Origin: Bacillota bacterium
Lineage (GTDB): Bacteria > Bacillota > Negativicutes > Sporomusales > CTSoil-080
Direction: 5' to 3'
Length of the DNA: 64,000 bases
Assembly: GCA_017889635.1 (NCBI GenBank)
Contig: JAGGAC010000002.1
Span: 1-64,000, forward strand
The notes below the pieces were generated by a model, which had not been told where the DNA came from, ran no database searches, and saw only the letters and a list, made by a program, of their open reading frames with translations. The position numbers and the translations under genes are program-made. This document shows positions 6,179-32,752 of the stretch, piece by piece. How positions within the stretch are numbered: position 1 is the first letter of the stretch; each line of letters opens with the position of its first letter.

Positions 6179-7450
6179 CTAACTTAGACCAAGCAGTTTG
6201 AAAAGCTGCTCTACCATGCCAGGCGCTACAACTGAAGCCAGCAATAAAATTGTAAGAACAATCAAAGTAATAGTAAACAGCCAGGCAATGGCATTATACC
6301 AACGAGAGTTCGTATACTCTCCCATCAGCCTTTTACTGCCGGCTATCAACACCATAAAAATAAGTATCGGCGGTAACAACACCCCGTTGATTACCTGCGT
6401 TGTCAACATTACTCGATACAACGACAATCCCGGCAAAAGCACCAGACAGGCACTGACAAAAATAATCACCGAATACAAACCGAAAAACACCGGCGCAGTC
6501 TTGTACTCTTTGCTTATACCCCTTTCAAAGCCAAAAGCTTCACACACCGCATAGGCAGTGCTCAGCGGCAAAACAAAGGCCGCCAGCATTGACGCTCCAA
6601 ACAAACCAAAAGAAAATAGCATTGCTGCATATCTTCCTGCAAGGGGCTCAAGCGCCACCGCAGCATCCTTAGCAGTCTCAATCGATATATTATTTACATA
6701 AAGCGTAGCAGCAGTAGCAACAATGATAAAGAAAGCAATAAGACCGGTAAAAAACGAACCAATTAATACATCTAAGCGAGTGTAGGCATAGTTTTTAGCG
6801 GTAATCCCTTTATCAACAACTGATGCTTGAACATAAAACTGGCCCCACGGAGTAATCGTCGTTCCAATAACCCCAACTGCCATTAAGAGAAATTCGGCAT
6901 CAGGGGAAAAGGTCGGCACAACCATAGCCGCAACAACAGTCTGCCATGGTGGATTAACCATAATTCCAGCCACTACATAACTTAGAAAAGTTACGCAGAG
7001 CATAAAAAAAATCTTTTCAGTTTTAGCGTAGTCAGCTTTAATCACCAGCCACCAAATCAAAAGTGCGCTGGCGGGGACCGAAAGGTACTTGCTGACCCCA
7101 AAAATTTCGAAACTTGTCGCAATACCCGAAAACTCTGATACAGTTGTACCGAGATTGGCTACTAATAATACAAGCATCGCGAAAAAAGCCCACTTTACAC
7201 CATACTCTTCCCTAATTAAATCTGATAAACCCCGCCCGGTAACCGCTCCGGTCCTGGCAGAAATTTCCTGGGCAATAGCTAATGCTACCGTACTTACAAG
7301 CATTATAAACAAGAGACCATAGCCATATTTTGCCCCAGCCGCGGCATAAGTTGTAATACCACCGGCATCATTATCAGCAAAGGCTGTTACTATCCCTGGC
7401 CCCATTGCCGCCAAAAGCAAGGTCAGTTTGGTACGAATTCTTTTACTCAT
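6179..7450 (-). CDS. Nramp-related transporter, probably for Mg2+ (NrMT type)
   Basis: An inner-membrane divalent-cation transporter of 423 residues with about 11 helices. The canonical Nramp metal site uses DPGN in helix 1 and MPH in helix 6. Here helix 1 reads ADNDAGG (D26, N27, D28) and helix 6 reads TTITPWGQFY, so the methionine that selects transition metals is missing. This pattern fits the Nramp-related magnesium transporters, a clade first linked to Mg2+ through M-box control. That is exactly the context here: an M-box riboswitch sits directly upstream. GGAGG precedes the ATG. Mg2+ as substrate is inferred from motif plus riboswitch. MntH-type Mn2+ uptake is less likely. Confidence 0.88.
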   Translation of the reverse strand: MSKRIRTKLTLLLAAMGPGIVTAFADNDAGGITTYAAAGAKYGYGLLFIMLVSTVALAIAQEISARTGAVTGRGLSDLIREEYGVKWAFFAMLVLLVANLGTTVSEFSGIATSFEIFGVSKYLSVPASALLIWWLVIKADYAKTEKIFFMLCVTFLSYVVAGIMVNPPWQTVVAAMVVPTFSPDAEFLLMAVGVIGTTITPWGQFYVQASVVDKGITAKNYAYTRLDVLIGSFFTGLIAFFIIVATAATLYVNNISIETAKDAAVALEPLAGRYAAMLFSFGLFGASMLAAFVLPLSTAYAVCEAFGFERGISKEYKTAPVFFGLYSVIIFVSACLVLLPGLSLYRVMLTTQVINGVLLPPILIFMVLIAGSKRLMGEYTNSRWYNAIAWLFTITLIVLTILLLASVVAPGMVEQLFKLLGLS

Positions 7451-7480: not shown

Positions 7481-7654
7481 AAAACCTTCCCCAAAAGGAA
7501 GGTCATTAAAAATCTGCTGACCTCCCCACTCGTTGAGTTTTAGCACTGCATAACGTAGAGTATTCCCCTCAGCCACATTAAGTAAAACCTTAATCCGGTA
7601 GTACCTGTTATAGCAGGAGCCTCACCTAACAGAGAAAAGCATTCTATTTATCTT
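7481..7654 (-). promoter_or_regulatory. M-box (ykoK) Mg2+ riboswitch with intrinsic terminator
   Basis: Read on the minus strand, the leader contains the hallmark GTTAGGTGAGGCTCCTG and, about 80 nt later, GCAGTGCTAAAACTC, both matching the B. subtilis mgtE M-box closely. A CTCTGTT/AACGAG closing stem bounds the aptamer at roughly 7529-7634. Downstream, CCTTCC/GGAAGG (7485-7502) followed by TTTTTC forms a terminator. GGAGGTCA can pair with TGACCTTCC as a competing antiterminator. Expected logic from the family: high Mg2+ stabilises the aptamer and termination, shutting off the transporter. Confidence 0.92.
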
Positions 7655-8615: not shown

Positions 8616-8690
8616 TATGGAACACATTGTAAGGATGTTTCATATTATGTTAATAGATCGGCCATTTAAAATACCGGAGGTGAAATATTA

Positions 8691-9227
8691 ATGTATTATG
8701 ACGATTTTGATGACGATGATGACGATATGATGTGTAGCTGTGAACCGATGAAGACCTGTACATCGATGAAATCTTGTCATTCTATGAAATTCTGCGGTTC
8801 CTGCGAACCTATGAAATCTTGTTATTCCATGAAATCTTGCGAGTCCTGTGAACCTATGAAATCCTGTTGTTCCATGAAATCCTGCGAATCCTGTGAACCT
8901 ATGAAATCTTGTTATTCCATGAAATCTTGCGAATCCTGTGAACCTATGAAATCTTGTTATTCCATGAAATCTTGCGAATCCTGTGAACCTATGAAATCCT
9001 GTTATTCCATGAAATCCTGTCACTATATGAAATGTATGTCCTGTATGCATGCCCACAAATGTATGTCCAGCTGTTCCTGTGAACCTATGAAATCCTGTCA
9101 TTCCATGAAATCTTGCCACTATATGAAATGTATGTCCTGTATGCATGCCCACAAATGTATGTCCAGCTGTTCCTGTGAACCTATGAAATCCTGTCATTAT
9201 ATGAAATCCTGTCACTATATGAAATAA
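8691..9227 (+). CDS. repetitive Cys/Met-rich protein with acidic N-terminus
   Basis: I do not recognise this protein. The 178 residues contain 35 Cys and 29 Met. Residues 1-14 are almost all Asp, Tyr and Met. Residues 37-111 are five 15-residue repeats built on SCEPMKSCYSMKSCE. Residues 111-174 are two near-identical 32-residue repeats containing MSCMHAHKCMSSC, and the chain ends HYMK. Strand choice rests on a near-perfect Shine-Dalgarno (GGAGGTGA, 8676-8683) seven bases before the ATG. There is no signal peptide or membrane helix. The Cys/Met/His content suggests soft-metal (Cu+, Zn2+ or Cd2+) binding. The acidic leader plus repetitive Cys core also resembles a modified-peptide precursor, and the convergent neighbour is a YcaO gene. 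Function is inferred only. Confidence 0.72.
   Translation: MYYDDFDDDDDDMMCSCEPMKTCTSMKSCHSMKFCGSCEPMKSCYSMKSCESCEPMKSCCSMKSCESCEPMKSCYSMKSCESCEPMKSCYSMKSCESCEPMKSCYSMKSCHYMKCMSCMHAHKCMSSCSCEPMKSCHSMKSCHYMKCMSCMHAHKCMSSCSCEPMKSCHYMKSCHYMK
8799..9023 (+). repeat. five tandem 45-bp coding repeats
   Basis: Period of 45 bp encoding SCEPMKSCYSMKSCE five times, with only a few base changes (for example CC for CY in the second copy). The high DNA identity points to recent expansion or homogenisation. Confidence 0.9.
9021..9212 (+). repeat. two tandem 96-bp coding repeats
   Basis: Two nearly identical copies of a 32-codon unit starting HYMKCMSCMHAHKC. They directly follow the 45-bp repeats and reuse the same SCEPMKSC module. 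Confidence 0.9.
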
Positions 9228-9304
9228 ACTAATCCTACTAACATTTGAACAGCGAAACTTCATTGTGAGCTTCTACCATCATTAGCAAATGTTTTACACC
9301 ATAT

Positions 9305-9346
9305 ATAACTGAAAAGACCTGGCGTTAGCCAGGCCTTTTCAGTTAT
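9305..9346. terminator. bidirectional terminator between the Cys-rich gene and ycaO
   Basis: Nineteen-bp inverted repeat (9305-9323/9328-9346) with one mismatch and a 4-nt loop. A-rich and T-rich flanks within the arms suit termination in both directions. Confidence 0.8.
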
Positions 9347-9364
9347 AACAGCACCAAACCAAAG

Positions 9365-11185
9365 TCATACTAAAATCTTTAATCTGTCCTGACTAATGTC
9401 GCTGGCAGCATAGCAAGCTTTTAATACCTTATATACCTCTTCCATCGGCTGATACAAGCATCGACTTTGAAACAGACACGTTTTACAATTCCAGCAGTCA
9501 AACTGTCCGTTGCCGCCAACAACAGCTTCCCGATTTTCAAACTCATTAATAACTCCCTGGACAACTTCCGGCGAGTAGAAGGCCACTAGGCGGCTTAATG
9601 TTTCGGGTTCATCCAAACTGTCCAGCCTAGTTCCAAAGTAATCACGCACACACTTATAATAGCTAACTGCCGTTGGGTTTTTCGACACTTGCCTGATATA
9701 CCCCAGAAACCGATTAAAAGCTTCGCGAGCTTCTGCCGTCTTGCCGCTTTGATAGTAGAGTGCAGTAATAAATAAATCAACATTTGAATAATACCAGGGA
9801 ACAGCACTATCTTCCAGCGGTAGCGCAGCCATCTCCATAACCGTTGTCATCGCATCATAATTAATCCCCTGCAAAAATTTGATTATACTTTCTGCCCCTT
9901 CTACATCCAGCGCACCACTGTGCCTGACCAGCCGCTTGAAGTTGTTAAACTCAGCATAATCGCTAATCGCCTTAATATCGTCAAACTCTTCCATCTCACT
10001 CATCCCTGGTACAATAACATGATAACCGGGAAAGCCAAGAAACGACACATCACGTACATATAAACTGTAGCCGTTATTCTGAAGCAAGCCCTGAATATTT
10101 ACTAACAGCTCATGGTTAGTGCCTGCCTGGCACTCAACCAAACCGCTAAACTCATAACTATAACTTTGGCTAAAAAACTCGGCAGGGTAGACCCCTGAAC
10201 CGTTAATCATTATGCCCATAATATTATCCGGATCGTCAGCCTTAGAACAGTAGGCGAATTCTCTTACCCCGCGCATCGCTCTGATATCCTGCCCCTGTAG
10301 AAGCTCGGTAAGTGTTCGTTCCACCGCAATTTCAAATATCGGATGAGCACCGAATTTAACAAAATAACTTTGATCCCTCTTGTTGGTATAAATAATACCT
10401 ACTACCGGCAACCCCATCTCCAGGGAACAATCCTTAAGAATAACCTCAAACGGTCCGCTGGCTTCAATAGCAGTCATCATCGCTTCAATCTTCGGATAGC
10501 TTTCGGCCAACATTTCCCTTGGAATGGTTGGCGGCACAAGCTTCTCCTTAATAATGCGCTTATTTACATACCGTTCCATAATTTCTGACAGTCCTTGCAC
10601 CAGGGCCTCTTCCGGCGTATTGCCGGCACACATCCCATTCGACATGTACATTTTGGATATCATTTTTATAGGAATATAAGAAATATTTTTTGTCCCTAGG
10701 TTGCAGTATGGTAACGCAATTAAATCAGCAGCAATGGTCTCATAAGATACTCCCTGCCACAGCCGCATTAACTCGCACCGATCAATATCCGGAGCTAACC
10801 GCGCAAACTGGGTTAGTACCCATTCTTCGTCGCTGTTTAAGAAATCATCGATACTTAGCATTTTCTCATCCGGCGCATAATAAAAACCTAGATAATTAAA
10901 TGCCTCGGGCCTTAAATCTAGGCTCAAGCGATAAGTGGCTAGGTTTTCAAGTCTCTCCATCATTTCACCGTATGCACTGGCCAGAGCATACTGCCGGGTG
11001 GTTCCCTTTCCGTTGGTCATTAAGCTTGTATTTTCAATTTCGATGCTAACAGAATAAAATCCCTCAACCGAATTCTTCCATAATGTCTCAACCGTCAATA
11101 ATCCTAAGTCTCCTAATATACCCCTTATTTTATTAATAGTCTTCAGTGGGGTCTCGTCCTTATACTTTAAATCCGGTAAACCCAT
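9365..11185 (-). CDS. ycaO: YcaO-domain protein of the E. coli YcaO type, with C-terminal Cys cluster
   Basis: YcaO proteins use ATP to activate peptide backbone amides; known products are azolines, thioamides and amidines. The core motifs are clear: NGKGTTRQYALASAYGEMME near 57-76 and SNGMCAGNTPEEALVQGLSE near 181-200, then FGAHPIFEIAVERTLTELLQ. These follow E. coli YcaO almost block for block, as does the length (606 against 586), including a helical TPR-like C-terminal region. E. coli YcaO is linked to RimO-dependent methylthiolation of ribosomal protein S12, but its chemistry is unsettled. Unlike the E. coli protein as I recall it, this one ends with C564, C567, C570 and C576 (C-x2-C-x2-C-x5-C), a likely metal or Fe-S site. 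No RimO, E1-like partner or dehydrogenase is adjacent. Confidence 0.88.
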   Translation of the reverse strand: MGLPDLKYKDETPLKTINKIRGILGDLGLLTVETLWKNSVEGFYSVSIEIENTSLMTNGKGTTRQYALASAYGEMMERLENLATYRLSLDLRPEAFNYLGFYYAPDEKMLSIDDFLNSDEEWVLTQFARLAPDIDRCELMRLWQGVSYETIAADLIALPYCNLGTKNISYIPIKMISKMYMSNGMCAGNTPEEALVQGLSEIMERYVNKRIIKEKLVPPTIPREMLAESYPKIEAMMTAIEASGPFEVILKDCSLEMGLPVVGIIYTNKRDQSYFVKFGAHPIFEIAVERTLTELLQGQDIRAMRGVREFAYCSKADDPDNIMGIMINGSGVYPAEFFSQSYSYEFSGLVECQAGTNHELLVNIQGLLQNNGYSLYVRDVSFLGFPGYHVIVPGMSEMEEFDDIKAISDYAEFNNFKRLVRHSGALDVEGAESIIKFLQGINYDAMTTVMEMAALPLEDSAVPWYYSNVDLFITALYYQSGKTAEAREAFNRFLGYIRQVSKNPTAVSYYKCVRDYFGTRLDSLDEPETLSRLVAFYSPEVVQGVINEFENREAVVGGNGQFDCWNCKTCLFQSRCLYQPMEEVYKVLKACYAASDISQDRLKILV

Positions 11186-11293
11186 GTTTTCGCCTCACTT
11201 CCCCATACTAATACTAAATATGGGTATGTTACCTAACCCAATCTTTTTTAGTATATTCCCGGTTAGCGAAAGTTGTGTTCTTGTCTGGTCAAT

Positions 11294-11339: not shown

Positions 11340-13007
11340 TTAGAATAGCCCAGTAATGCGGCCATCATTGTCTATATCGATAACCTCGGCAGCCGGACGT
11401 TTAGGCAATCCCGGCATGGTCATAATATCGCCGGTAATCGCTACCAAGAAACCGGCACCAGCCGCTACCCGTACTTCTTTCACCGTAATAGTAAAATCTT
11501 TTGGGCGACCTAATTTAGATGGATCATCACTGAACGAATACTGGGTTTTTGCCATACAAACCGGTGTTTTATCAAACCCCATAGCCGTAAGCTCATCAAT
11601 CGTCTTTGCTGCAGCAGGTGAAAAATTCACCCCGGATGCCCCGTAGATTTTACCGGCAATAGCAAGAATTTTATCTCTAATCGGCTGATTAACATCATAA
11701 ATAAACTTGAAATTATTTGGCTTTTCCATAGCTGCCAGAACTTTATCCGCTAAGGCAAGGCCGCCTTCGCCCCCCTTCGCCCATACCTCGGAAACCGCCA
11801 CATCCGCGCCAATATCCTGACATATCTTAACTAAAAGCTCAAGCTCGCTCTTAGTATCGGTCGGAAAAGCGTTAACCGCCACCACCACAGGCAAACCGAA
11901 ACTTTGGATATTTTCAATATGCTTAGCCAGGTTGTCCAGACCTTTCTCCAAAGCACGAAGATTTTCAGTTCCCAATTCAGCTTTAGGTACTCCGCCATGC
12001 ATCTTTAGAGCCCTAACGGTCGCAACAATAACAACTGCATCAGGTTTAAAACCGGCAAAGCGGCATTTGATGTCAAGAAATTTCTCAGCGCCAAGGTCAG
12101 CGCCAAAACCTGCCTCTGTAACAAGAACGTCAGCCAGCTTAAGGGCAAACTTAGACGCCATAATAGTATTACAACCATGAGCAATATTGGCAAACGGCCC
12201 ACCATGAACAAAAGCCGGCGTGTTTTCCAAGGTTTGTACCAGATTAGGCTTAATAGCATCCTTAAACAATACCGTAAGCGCTCCGGCTACCTTGAGATCA
12301 GCAACAGTAATTGGCCTATTGTCAAAGGTATAACCGATGACAATCCGATTAATTCGAGCCTTAAGATCAGTTAAATCAGACGCTAGACAGAGAATAGCCA
12401 TAAACTCAGACGCAACAGTAATATCAAAGCCGCTTTCCCGCGGCATACCATTAACCTTTCCGCCAAGTCCAACCACGACCTGTCGAAGCGCCCGATCATT
12501 CAGGTCAACAACCCGCCGAAAAGTAACCCGCCGCGGGTCAATGCCAAGTTCATTGCCATGATGAATATGATTGTCAATAACCGCCGCCAAAAGATTATGA
12601 GCGGTAGTAACGGCATGAATATCACCAGTAAAATGCAGGTTTATATCTTCCATGGGAACAACCTGTGCATAACCGCCGCCCGCGGCTCCGCCTTTTACGC
12701 CAAAACAGGGGCCAAGCGACGGTTCTCTAAGCGCAATAACCGTTTTTTTGCCCATTTTGTGAAGTGCATCACCAAGACCAACAGTTGTAGTGGTTTTTCC
12801 TTCCCCGGCAGGAGTCGGATTGATTGCCGTAACCAATATTAGCTTCCCGTCAGGGCGGGATTTAATCTTATCCCAAACCTTGAGCGAAACCTTTGCCTTG
12901 TACTTTCCGTAGAGTTCAAGGTCATCCTCGGTCAATCCAAGCTGCTCCGCCACCACAGTAATCGGCAGCATCTCAGCTGCCTGTGCAATTTCAACATCGC
13001 TTTTCAT
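11340..13007 (-). CDS. fhs: formate-tetrahydrofolate ligase
   Basis: ATP-dependent synthesis of 10-formyl-tetrahydrofolate from formate, the entry to the methyl branch of the Wood-Ljungdahl pathway. The 555-residue length is typical. The P-loop region [18 protein letters not shown] (near 65-82), [20 protein letters not shown], and the C-terminal [15 protein letters not shown] are hallmark stretches. GGAGG precedes the ATG. It is the last gene of a probable operon with corrinoid methyl-transfer genes, 23 nt after the preceding stop. That places formate and methyl-corrinoid entry of one-carbon units under shared control. Confidence 0.97.
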
Positions 13008-13030
13008 TCAGATACCTCCATCAACTACAT

Positions 13031-13420
13031 TTATGGCCTAAATAAATTATGAGCTTTAAACTCAGCATCAGCTAGTGATTTCTGCACAACTTTCATGACA
13101 GCTTCCTTGCTGTGCCCGAAAACCAGAACATTAAGCTCTAGTACCAATTCTCTAATTAAGCTGCCTGCATCAACTACAGCGTCTTCAGACATCGTTTTTA
13201 CATCCACGCGATCCATTCTCGTCAAAGAAAGAAATATATAATCCTCTGATGCAGCCAACTTAGCCAGTAGCTTAATATGTCCTAAGATTACGCCATTATT
13301 CGAAAGCGGCTGACCGATACTAAGTAAAAATTTCTTTAATACAGCTTCAACGTCTGACCTCTTTATCGGTCTAGCAACACTCACCGGAATGGATTGGCTA
13401 AAAACAGCAGCTTTATTCAT
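13031..13420 (-). CDS. small protein of unknown function in the C1 operon
   Basis: I do not recognise this 129-residue protein. It is soluble, with alternating helix and strand segments and no Cys, His-rich or membrane motifs. Its ATG overlaps the stop codon of the CobW-like GTPase by 4 nt (ATGA), and GGAGG lies ten bases before it, so it is translationally coupled to that GTPase. Context suggests a partner of the GTPase or of corrinoid activation, but nothing in the sequence proves this. Confidence 0.75.
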   Translation of the reverse strand: MNKAAVFSQSIPVSVARPIKRSDVEAVLKKFLLSIGQPLSNNGVILGHIKLLAKLAASEDYIFLSLTRMDRVDVKTMSEDAVVDAGSLIRELVLELNVLVFGHSKEAVMKVVQKSLADAEFKAHNLFRP

Positions 13421-14004
13421 GCCCGTAATACCTCCGCAAGCACTTTAGGCGGCAGTTTGTTTAGCGCACAGGCAGTTAAGAGAGGAACCGAACCAGCAAT
13501 TTTTTTTACAGACTCAATTGTATCAGACAACTCAAAGCCCGCAAGATCAATCTTATTTATAATAACAAGGTCACTCTTCGCGATCTGACTTTCCATCAGC
13601 GGTTCCAGCACTGCTAAAAGCTCGGGCCAACGTCCGGCATCGACAATAGTAATAGTTTTAATCGAACTAATCAGATGATATTTCCCTATAAAATCGGCTA
13701 CTTTACTTGGCACAGCGATGCCAGTCATCTCTATTATTAACCAATCTGGGTTAATAGTCTTATGAATTTCGGCAACCGCAGTAACTAGATCGCTTGTTAT
13801 CTGACAACACACGCACCCGCCAAACAACGGCCTTACCTCAATGCCGCTAGTTTTCAACAGCTTATCGTCGACACCGGCTTCACCTATTTCATTTTCAATA
13901 ATTGCCACCGTTTCAGCTTGAACTTCAGTAATTTGTTTTGCTACCTCTAATATTGTCGAGGTTTTTCCCGATCCCAGAAACCCCCCGAAAAGCAAGAGCC
14001 GCAT
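13417..14004 (-). CDS. CobW/UreG-type G3E GTPase
   Basis: A P-loop GTPase of the G3E family, which delivers metals or cofactors to target enzymes. It has a Walker A (GGFLGSGKTS, residues 7-16), the CobW signature GGCVCC (62-67) whose cysteines bind metal, and a guanine-specificity NKID. At 195 residues it is short: it lacks the C-terminal domain usual in CobW/ZNG proteins, and the 129-residue protein translated next may supply that part. It starts 6 nt after the RACo gene. A role in assembling or reactivating the corrinoid system is inferred from position; zinc delivery to the methyltransferase is an alternative. Confidence 0.85.
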   Translation of the reverse strand: MRLLLFGGFLGSGKTSTILEVAKQITEVQAETVAIIENEIGEAGVDDKLLKTSGIEVRPLFGGCVCCQITSDLVTAVAEIHKTINPDWLIIEMTGIAVPSKVADFIGKYHLISSIKTITIVDAGRWPELLAVLEPLMESQIAKSDLVIINKIDLAGFELSDTIESVKKIAGSVPLLTACALNKLPPKVLAEVLRA

Positions 14005-14010
14005 TAGTTT

Positions 14011-15831
14011 TTACACCTCATTTTGCACCTCAGAAAATTGTAAATTACGCAAAAACAATTCTTGAAACTCAGGCTCGGCTGCCAATTCAATATAATTCGC
14101 TTTCCGTGATATATTGTGACAACGATCAAGGTTCTTCTTTGAAAGCAGTGCCTTAACCGCGCCAACGCCTGCGGCGTTACCCACCGGAATAATCTGCTCT
14201 CTGCTGAATCCTGGCAAAAGCCCAATCACAAGCGCACTGTCAATATCAATATAATTTCCCAAAGCCCCGGCAAGAAAAACAGGCATTTTCTCTCCCACCG
14301 CCACCTTGGTCATTAATATTTCAATACCTGAACAAATAGCCGATTTTACAAGTTGAATTTGCCGAATATCCGACTGGGTAATCGAAATATCGACCCCGGT
14401 AGCACTTTTTGCACCTTCAACAAGAACAAACTCCCATTTATCATCTTTTTTCTTCAACCGTCGTGCCAACTCCGGTGGTAAATTATCTGCGATCCGGTAA
14501 TTAAATCGGCCTGTTGCGGTAATAATTTTCTTCTTAATAAGTTCAGCAACAGCCTTGACAATGCCTGAACCGCAAATACCGCTCGGTTTCCCGTCACCAA
14601 TAGTTTTAAACCATACTATATCGGCAATAACAACATTTTCTATAGCACCAGCAGAAGCCCGCATTCCATCACGGATATGCGCCCCCTCAAAAGCCGGCCC
14701 GGCAGCAGTTGAACAAGCAAAGAATCGGTCCCTGTTACCAATAACAATTTCTCCGTTTGTGCCCAAATCTACCAGCAGCCCTTCAGTCAACAACTCATCC
14801 TGATTAACAGCCAGCATAGCAGCCGTTGTGTCGGGCCCGATAAAACTGGCAATTCCCGGCAGCACTACCACTTTCCCCACTTTGCTGATATTTATGCCAA
14901 TTTCGTCAGGCGAAAAAGGCCCAACACTATTGAACAATGCCGCAAACGGTTTAGCCGCCAAACTCGCTGGTGAAAGTTCCATTAAAAGATGGGTCATGGT
15001 TGTATTTCCGGCAATTGTTGCGGCATAAATATTCGCTGGTGGCACCCTCGCAACATCACATAGTTTAGTAATAATCCGGTTAAGACACTTCCTGATTGCC
15101 GCAGCCTGGCTAGCCAAACCCGCCGGAGTTGATGCGGCACTAATCCGGGAAATTACATCCGCCCCAAACGCCGCCTGGGGGTTGTTTTCTGAAATAGTTG
15201 CAATTACCTTCCGGGCATTAACATTAACAAGAAAGCCGGCCACCGTAGTTGTTCCAATATCAAAGGCAACACCAAACAGTGCGTCTCTTGTATCACCGGC
15301 TTCGACTGCAACAATCTCGCCGTCAACCAAAACCACCGTAATTTCTTTCCTGCGAAGTTCAACCAGATTCGCGAGCTGTTTTAATACCCCGCGAGTAGTA
15401 ATAGGTTGCTCATCACCCAGTGCCTGGCAAAGCATTTCTTGCAGCGAATAATGTTTCTCCACAGAAGGATACTGCAATCTTACTACCGCCTTTCTAAGAA
15501 GCGGCTGTCCTTCAGGCTCGAACCCTAGCGAAATAATGCCTTTATCGGTTGCCATAGACTGCTTTATTCTTATTACAACATCCGTACGCGGATAAACTTG
15601 ACAAGCCAAATACACATTATTGCCAACAGGCGCTGCTTCTTTTCCATCCGAGTCAACCACTTGGCCGCCGGTTACCTGAATTTTGCATTTACCGCAGGTT
15701 CCTCGGCCCGCGCAGTTAGCTTCAATAAAAACCTCGCCTTCTGTAAGCGCAGCTAACAAACTTTTATTACCATAGCAAGGTACAACCTCGGTTTCGCCCT
15801 CAATAATTAGTTTAAAAGCTTCATCAGACAC
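14011..15831 (-). CDS. reductive activator of corrinoid proteins (RACo-like, 2Fe-2S plus ASKHA domain)
   Basis: Uses ATP and a low-potential electron to return inactive Co(II) corrinoid protein to Co(I). Residues 1-90 are a plant-type [2Fe-2S] ferredoxin domain with C40, C46, C49 and C77. A linker follows, then the DUF4445/ASKHA ATPase region (FGVAFDIGTTTVAGFLVN, GLLVDLGTNGEIVIG, GICGSGIVKAVAELI). The 606-residue length matches RACo. The start is GTG behind GGGGCG. It lies between the corrinoid-protein gene and a CobW-like GTPase gene, as expected for the repair enzyme of this methyl-transfer system. Confidence 0.93.
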   Translation of the reverse strand: MSDEAFKLIIEGETEVVPCYGNKSLLAALTEGEVFIEANCAGRGTCGKCKIQVTGGQVVDSDGKEAAPVGNNVYLACQVYPRTDVVIRIKQSMATDKGIISLGFEPEGQPLLRKAVVRLQYPSVEKHYSLQEMLCQALGDEQPITTRGVLKQLANLVELRRKEITVVLVDGEIVAVEAGDTRDALFGVAFDIGTTTVAGFLVNVNARKVIATISENNPQAAFGADVISRISAASTPAGLASQAAAIRKCLNRIITKLCDVARVPPANIYAATIAGNTTMTHLLMELSPASLAAKPFAALFNSVGPFSPDEIGINISKVGKVVVLPGIASFIGPDTTAAMLAVNQDELLTEGLLVDLGTNGEIVIGNRDRFFACSTAAGPAFEGAHIRDGMRASAGAIENVVIADIVWFKTIGDGKPSGICGSGIVKAVAELIKKKIITATGRFNYRIADNLPPELARRLKKKDDKWEFVLVEGAKSATGVDISITQSDIRQIQLVKSAICSGIEILMTKVAVGEKMPVFLAGALGNYIDIDSALVIGLLPGFSREQIIPVGNAAGVGAVKALLSKKNLDRCHNISRKANYIELAAEPEFQELFLRNLQFSEVQNEV

Positions 15832-32395: not shown

Positions 32396-32752
32396 TTACT
32401 CACTATCCGGTCCTATAGGTACACCCGTTTCAGCAGCCCCAGTTGCGATAGGTTCTTCTACAATTCCAGCGTCAATCGATTGCTTAAGGTTTTCAAATTG
32501 AGCTTCGCTAACAAGATCTTCAATGTCTTCCCTGACTCCGCTAAACAAACCCTTTACCTGCTCGGAAAGCGCTATGACTCCTTGCACAGTTATTTCATCA
32601 TGCCTTTCAAATTTCGGAAACCGCCTATTGTTCGGTCCTTCCCACAATGTATATATCCATCGTGGTAGTATAACCTCTGCTGACTTCTGACAGTTCAGCC
32701 ACACATCACTGTATGGGTTGATGTTTCCAGATTCATATCTACAGCATCTCAA
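32396..32752 (-). CDS. hypothetical protein paired with the 83-residue helical protein
   Basis: A 118-residue protein from a TTG start with GGGGAG six bases upstream. The N-terminal 55 residues have three Cys and several Trp; the rest is acidic and helical (EQVKGLFSGVREDIEDLVSE). No family is recognised. It is separated by a terminator from the CC/Se-like gene upstream, so it probably has its own promoter. Confidence 0.5.
   Translation of the reverse strand: MRCCRYESGNINPYSDVWLNCQKSAEVILPRWIYTLWEGPNNRRFPKFERHDEITVQGVIALSEQVKGLFSGVREDIEDLVSEAQFENLKQSIDAGIVEEPIATGAAETGVPIGPDSE

Follow-up and report, generated by a model that had tools for sequence, protein, structure and literature searches.

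A pair of neighbouring genes in the stretch of DNA analysed here (the window; 64,000 nt, positions 1-64,000 of contig JAGGAC010000002.1, Bacillota bacterium; Negativicutes; Sporomusales; CTSoil-080) encodes a protein with Cys or Met at every third position and a YcaO enzyme. The reading that we somewhat favour is that of a spore-coat protein that serves as the substrate of this YcaO, with thioamide formation as the leading chemistry. As judged from the sequences, the architecture of this YcaO is a familiar one and its partner is of a new kind.

The repeat gene (8691-9227, forward strand), as read from its open reading frame and composition counts, encodes a 178-residue Cys/Met-triplet protein with an acidic N-terminus, MYYDDFDDDDDD, and exactly 35 Cys and 29 Met. 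Five 45-nt repeat units at 8802-9026 of the forward strand (unit sequence CEPMKSCYSMKSCES) specify the 15 residues CEPMKSC[YC]SMKSC[EH][SY], and they are overlapped by a second family at 8979-9170 of the same strand, in which two 96-nt units are 97% identical, contain KCMSCMHAHKCMSSC and are followed by a partial third copy up to 9227. Successive Cys/Met residues are spaced by exactly 3 residues in 43 of 63 cases, and the 51 Cys/Met pairs at distance +3 compare with a mean of 22.3 and a maximum of 34 in 10,000 residue shuffles, a regularity that exceeds what composition alone gives. Variation among the 15-residue units spares every Cys/Met position of the register. The protein has no match in Pfam or NCBIfam. 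Its gene is preceded by the ribosome-binding site GGAGGTGA (8676-8683, forward strand), and akin GAGGTG sites lie upstream of most related repeat genes. An open reading frame on the opposite strand (8688-9263) was rejected as a gene, since it is no more than the repeat gene's antisense shadow. A hairpin terminator (9304-9348; -28.9 kcal/mol, z -8.2) separates the repeat gene from the convergent ycaO, and domain searches found no protease, exporter or dehydrogenase gene adjoining the pair. An earlier note, made from the letters of the window, had already given the residue counts, the acidic start, the two repeat families, the convergent arrangement with its terminator and the lack of such neighbours, and all of these proved correct on recount and search, the counts exactly so.

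The ycaO gene (9365-11185, reverse strand) encodes 606 residues with a YcaO superfamily domain (PF02624, E 8e-52), which retains the ATP/Mg-binding residues, and with a C-terminal cluster of the cysteines C564, C567 and C570. Among proteins of solved structure, E. coli YcaO matches it best; the two are about 26% identical, and the match covers residues 7-543, almost the full length. The predicted model matches the fold of 4q86 (E 5e-27) at a pLDDT of only 68.7, and with moderate confidence this suggests an E. coli-type architecture including the C-terminal region. In E. coli numbering, K9, E75, E78, N187, E191, E199, E202, R203, R286 and E290 are conserved. Against NF040716, the equivalog model of the uL16-modifying E. 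coli enzyme, the window YcaO scores 296 bits at a cut-off of 700, so that a classification as S12/uL16 YcaO would be misplaced. TfuA was found in none of 23 genomes. A pairing of an acidic enzyme with a basic substrate, as in E. coli, recurs only in part and was dropped as inconsistent, with the pI ranging from 4.75 to 8.5 for YcaO and from 4.1 to 8.6 for the repeat proteins. Upstream of ycaO, genes of one-carbon metabolism follow at 11340-15831 of the reverse strand (formate-tetrahydrofolate ligase, CobW-like and RACo-type corrinoid activator genes). A group II intron D1-D4 match lies at 32635-32720 of the reverse strand.

When 60 relatives were searched with each of the two proteins, the two genes turned out to be adjacent, with their 3' ends facing each other, in eight genomes, and in a ninth relative (G035) on separate contigs; reading the loci of relatives added the pairs of G011, G018 and G046. 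Matches in G031, G049 and G019 are repeat proteins of other kinds rather than triplet proteins. When named genomes were scanned with a YcaO alignment, 78 loci emerged, and on reading their flanks a triplet gene was seen next to ycaO in Sporomusa, Propionispora, Lucifera, several Clostridium, Alkaliphilus and others. In a maximum-likelihood tree of the enzymes, on which the triplet-gene labels were set by reading flanks, one supported clade (98/97) that unites Negativicutes and Clostridia has an adjacent triplet gene in 22 of its 26 members, and the label changes only 3 times over the tree, compared with a mean of 18.4 after shuffling. The four members without such a neighbour are Pelosinus, where the contig ends at this point, two Tepidibacter and L068; the latter three and also G113 were counted against the pairing. 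A mechanical repeat test gave a positive result close to ycaO at 15 of the 79 loci and for none of 2,974 open reading frames more than 3 kb away from it; its thresholds were strict, so that several clear cases were missed, and L050 and L054 were flagged through another frame of the same repeat. The order of the two genes is not fixed, as C. gasigenes and C. uliginosum have the triplet gene upstream of ycaO and on its strand and Alkaliphilus likewise has it upstream, and a comparison of the locus neighbourhoods revealed no other widely conserved neighbour and no conserved protease or exporter near the pair. Since the pair stays together while order, strand and flanks change, the repeat gene and ycaO are almost certainly functionally linked. 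The earlier note had proposed a new type of YcaO substrate and a check of the neighbours of E. coli-type YcaO genes; that check, with its 22 of 26 clade members, and the mechanical test bear out the linkage, and the substrate part of the proposal stands as the best reading.

Several further observations concern these loci. A gene of the ylbF/YmcA family directly precedes ycaO in six of them (L048, L049, L057, L061, L063 and L067; PF06133 in the four tested). In one genome (G014:C1, 316476-317750; L041/L036) an IS3-type insertion splits ycaO next to an intact triplet gene, and in Lutibacter sp. B2 (L074) ycaO is broken into several frames and a triplet gene was found neither adjacent nor elsewhere in the genome. 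The outgroup loci L071, L072, L075 and L076 carry two YcaO-family genes in tandem and a methyltransferase-like gene. No relative was found in the viral contigs searched. A WKB codon pattern for Cys/Met triplets was dropped as too permissive, because its control counts over 60 genomes often reached the number of matches.

In 21 linked repeat proteins, Cys and Met occupy one common register. Of their pooled 978 Cys/Met residues, 763 are followed by Cys or Met at +3, compared with a shuffled mean of 325; a small residue stands in front (Ser 44%, Gly 14%, Pro 9%, Cys 9%, Ala 7%) and a polar one behind (Gln, Lys, His, Asp). Across these proteins the common rule is thus Cys or Met at every third position after a small residue, and not Cys as such. 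While the Negativicutes proteins contain both Cys and Met, the Clostridium versions contain mainly Met, some of them up to 64 Met with 0-3 Cys, and because of these versions, such as that of C. uliginosum with 55 Met and no Cys in 170 residues, Cys is ruled out as the common target, which it had been taken to be in the initial interpretation. The layout of an acidic leader and a core, also assumed there, does not hold either, since the acidic stretch, found at the N-terminus in Negativicutes, lies at the C-terminus of several Clostridium proteins and is therefore not a classical leader. Of the features of a RiPP precursor, the repeat gene has the adjacent enzyme and the repetitive sequence, with an acidic end that switches termini and no adjoining leader peptidase.

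These compositions also bear on the chemistry. Classical YcaO chemistry would suggest a cyclodehydratase that makes thiazolines or oxazolines at Cys and Ser of the repeats, the -18 Da option of the earlier note, and the Negativicutes versions, in which Ser precedes 77% of the in-register Cys, are rich in the Ser-Cys pairs that would suit it. Yet the pair is kept in C. uliginosum, whose protein has 8 Ser and neither Cys nor Thr, and in C. gasigenes, with 3 Cys, 1 Thr and 4 Ser in 219 residues; because Cys, Ser and Thr are this scarce in some members, azoline formation is not the shared chemistry. The conserved neighbours of YcaO include neither a dehydrogenase nor an E1/ocin-ThiF partner, and the nearest characterised enzyme is a thioamide maker (PMC13063428), so that we regard a cyclodehydratase as improbable. 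Thioamidation, unlike azoline formation, needs no side chain of Cys, Ser or Thr, as seen from the M82A variant of uL16, which is still modified by E. coli YcaO (PMC13063428).

A sporulation context, which had been missing from the initial interpretation, is suggested by the promoters. We take AC-N16/17-CATAnnnT to be the sigma-K consensus of Bacillus. A match precedes the repeat gene at 8622-8650 of the forward strand (-35 AC at 8622-8623, 17 nt, -10 CATATTATG at 8641-8649), which places this gene in a sigma-K regulon by consensus match only, and AC-N17-AATATACTA, with one departure from the consensus, precedes ycaO at 11249-11276 of the reverse strand. Of the linked repeat genes, 15 of 21 have the site at a distance of 31-46 bp from the start codon, compared with 10 of 193 control genes, and SpoIVA is encoded in all 13 YcaO-positive relatives and in 30 of 48 others; the p values for the two comparisons (Fisher p 3e-12, with a shuffle mean of 0.5 of 21, and 0.006, respectively) disregard shared ancestry and thereby overstate the strength. 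A relaxed form of the site is found upstream of ycaO, or of a leading ylbF, in 13 of 27 clade members and 9 of 238 controls, whereas sigma-E-like sites were found upstream of none of the 27. In the genome of the window, AC-N17-CATATTATGT has 11 matches compared with 1 for the reversed control. Only this longer form was used as evidence, because the shorter AC-N17-CATATANTA was not enriched (18 matches, 27 for its reversed control). Eight of the 11 matches precede Cys-rich repeat genes with an acidic start, namely the window gene and seven others (L152, L153, L157, L158, L160, L161 and L162), which have an EWEDPxIEDY-like start and repeats of CFPRQ, CSPRQ, CYPRQ or GCRPRYY. A radical SAM/SPASM gene (L154; G000:C36, ~1738) also lies behind AC-N17-CATATTATGT and is followed by a Cys-rich CxP-type open reading frame; its product may be the second RiPP-like enzyme of the putative coat regulon. 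Taken at the level of promoters and gene content, the pair very probably belongs to a spore-coat context, and we infer that the repeat protein itself resides in the coat.

Whether such a coat protein goes with YcaO was approached from the reverse side in a sample of 195 Clostridiales genomes, six of which have a YcaO of this kind. Strict Met-triplet genes occur in 5 of these six and in 1 of the 189 YcaO-negative genomes (p 1.6e-8, with no correction for relatedness), and in the lone case (G081, L219) the contig breaks off about 140 bp beyond the gene, on the flank expected to carry ycaO. The remaining Met-rich matches in YcaO-negative clostridia (L201, L204, L213 and others) belong to a Met-Met type, exemplified by MMPMDQMMGMNP, and some of these proteins have a sigma-K-like site; Tepidibacter has a gene of this type away from its ycaO. 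In the family of the window, G001 encodes a short related protein (L012; KCMYCMHAPICMTDC compared with KCMSCMHAHKCMSSC) behind a sigma-K-like site and has no YcaO. Homologues without ycaO, named in the earlier note as a ground for giving up the substrate idea, thus give a mixed picture: similar proteins do occur without the enzyme, and the strict triplet track is, in the genomes compared, the feature that goes with YcaO. As L012, L219, the Met-Met type and the CxPRQ family all occur without YcaO, a coat role is not in itself YcaO-dependent, and it is plausible for the related proteins on the basis of their sequences.

The main rival to our reading, although rather unlikely, is an unmodified structural or metal-sequestering coat protein, with a metallothionein-like lattice or disulfide cross-links, whose YcaO would be linked otherwise, for example by acting on uL16 or another coat protein of the regulon. 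The Cys/Met-rich coat-like genes that share the promoter without a YcaO of their own in the genome of the window, and the Met-rich proteins of YcaO-negative clostridia, would fit it. MxxM and CxxC spacings suit soft metals, and their presence here agrees with metal sequestration. However, only strict triplet proteins are paired in this way, and the pairing persists where flanks, order and orientation have changed, and an enzyme for uL16 would need no triplet neighbour, with E. coli ycaO having none (PMC13063428). A variant would combine both ideas, in that thioamides or azoles together with the thioethers and thiols of Met and Cys give the spore a buried store or catalyst shell of soft metals such as copper, comparable in principle to copper-binding RiPPs. 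Density and spacing of the sulfur ligands speak for it, and so do the Nramp-like and TerC-family genes that adjoin the pair in the window, though these recur in only four loci; as neither a metal transporter nor a chaperone is a widely conserved companion of the pair, we consider it very unlikely. The Nramp-family transporter gene (6179-7450) has an M-box magnesium riboswitch upstream, at 7518-7640 of the reverse strand.

We therefore return to the coat protein as YcaO substrate. In the proposed mechanism the pair would be a late mother-cell sporulation module, and the 178-residue protein a repetitive protein of the spore surface with Cys or Met at every third position. YcaO, made late in the mother cell, would bind the triplet protein, activate backbone amides with ATP and swap oxygen for sulfur at many repeats before or during coat assembly. 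The site may be the Cys/Met itself or the preceding small residue, with E. coli YcaO acting on Met82 of uL16 as the model, and the coat polymer could thereby become protease-resistant, soft-metal-binding or UV-absorbing. The repeat protein is probably the substrate of the neighbouring YcaO; for thioamidation as its chemistry, which is argued by analogy, the case is evenly balanced. The E. coli enzyme, the chemistry of which had been called unsettled in the earlier note, is now reported to be a thioamide synthase that converts the backbone at uL16 Met82 with ATP, Mg and sulfide and without TfuA, requires folded uL16 and leaves short loop peptides unmodified in vitro (PMC13063428). Because of this need for a folded protein, a low-complexity substrate would need another mode of recognition. 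MCR and uL16 are the only two characterised thioamidated proteins described in that study, the authors of which state that further YcaO substrates are still undiscovered (PMC13063428).

It is tentatively conceivable, if somewhat doubtful, that the pair represents a class of spore-coat polymers whose chains each bear tens of backbone thioamides, put in along a triplet track by a dedicated, sulfur-transferring YcaO. If true, protein thioamidation would gain a third kind, and for the first time one that yields a structural biomaterial; YcaO chemistry would extend to spore structure, and the repetitive substrate would allow the relation of modification density and function to be dissected. A literature search, with most subscription papers outside its scope, found nothing that links YcaO to spore coats or sporulation. 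The radical SAM/SPASM gene that shares the promoter in the window genome hints that spore coats may be a hiding place of RiPP-like chemistry. The pair offers a testable YcaO-substrate candidate in the culturable genera Sporomusa and Clostridium.

Cys-rich proteins of the spore surface are familiar from C. difficile CdeC and Bacillus CotY/CotZ, which share the Cys-richness and the link to spores with the triplet proteins but lack the strict triplet register. The CxPRQ genes of the window genome share the promoter and the acidic start with the repeat gene, again without a strict triplet register, and no YcaO was found beside them in the stretches read. With E. coli YcaO (PDB 4q84-4q86) the window enzyme has in common the architecture with its C-terminal helical region, the ATP-site residues and the stand-alone occurrence without TfuA, and the E. 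coli target residue is a Met, as also borne by the window repeats; it differs in the low identity, in the NF040716 score and in having a repetitive sporulation-type gene as partner, whereas no small substrate gene adjoins ycaO in E. coli. The methanogen YcaO-TfuA system shares the ATP-dependent backbone thioamidation of a protein, McrA, by a YcaO, as is here proposed, but its catalytic core aligns only in part (6pe3), and there is no TfuA in the genomes considered here. Thioamide and azole RiPPs likewise have a small repetitive gene adjoining YcaO, and the present pair departs from them in lacking a conserved protease or exporter and a fixed acidic leader and in having a sporulation-type promoter and a structural-looking product.
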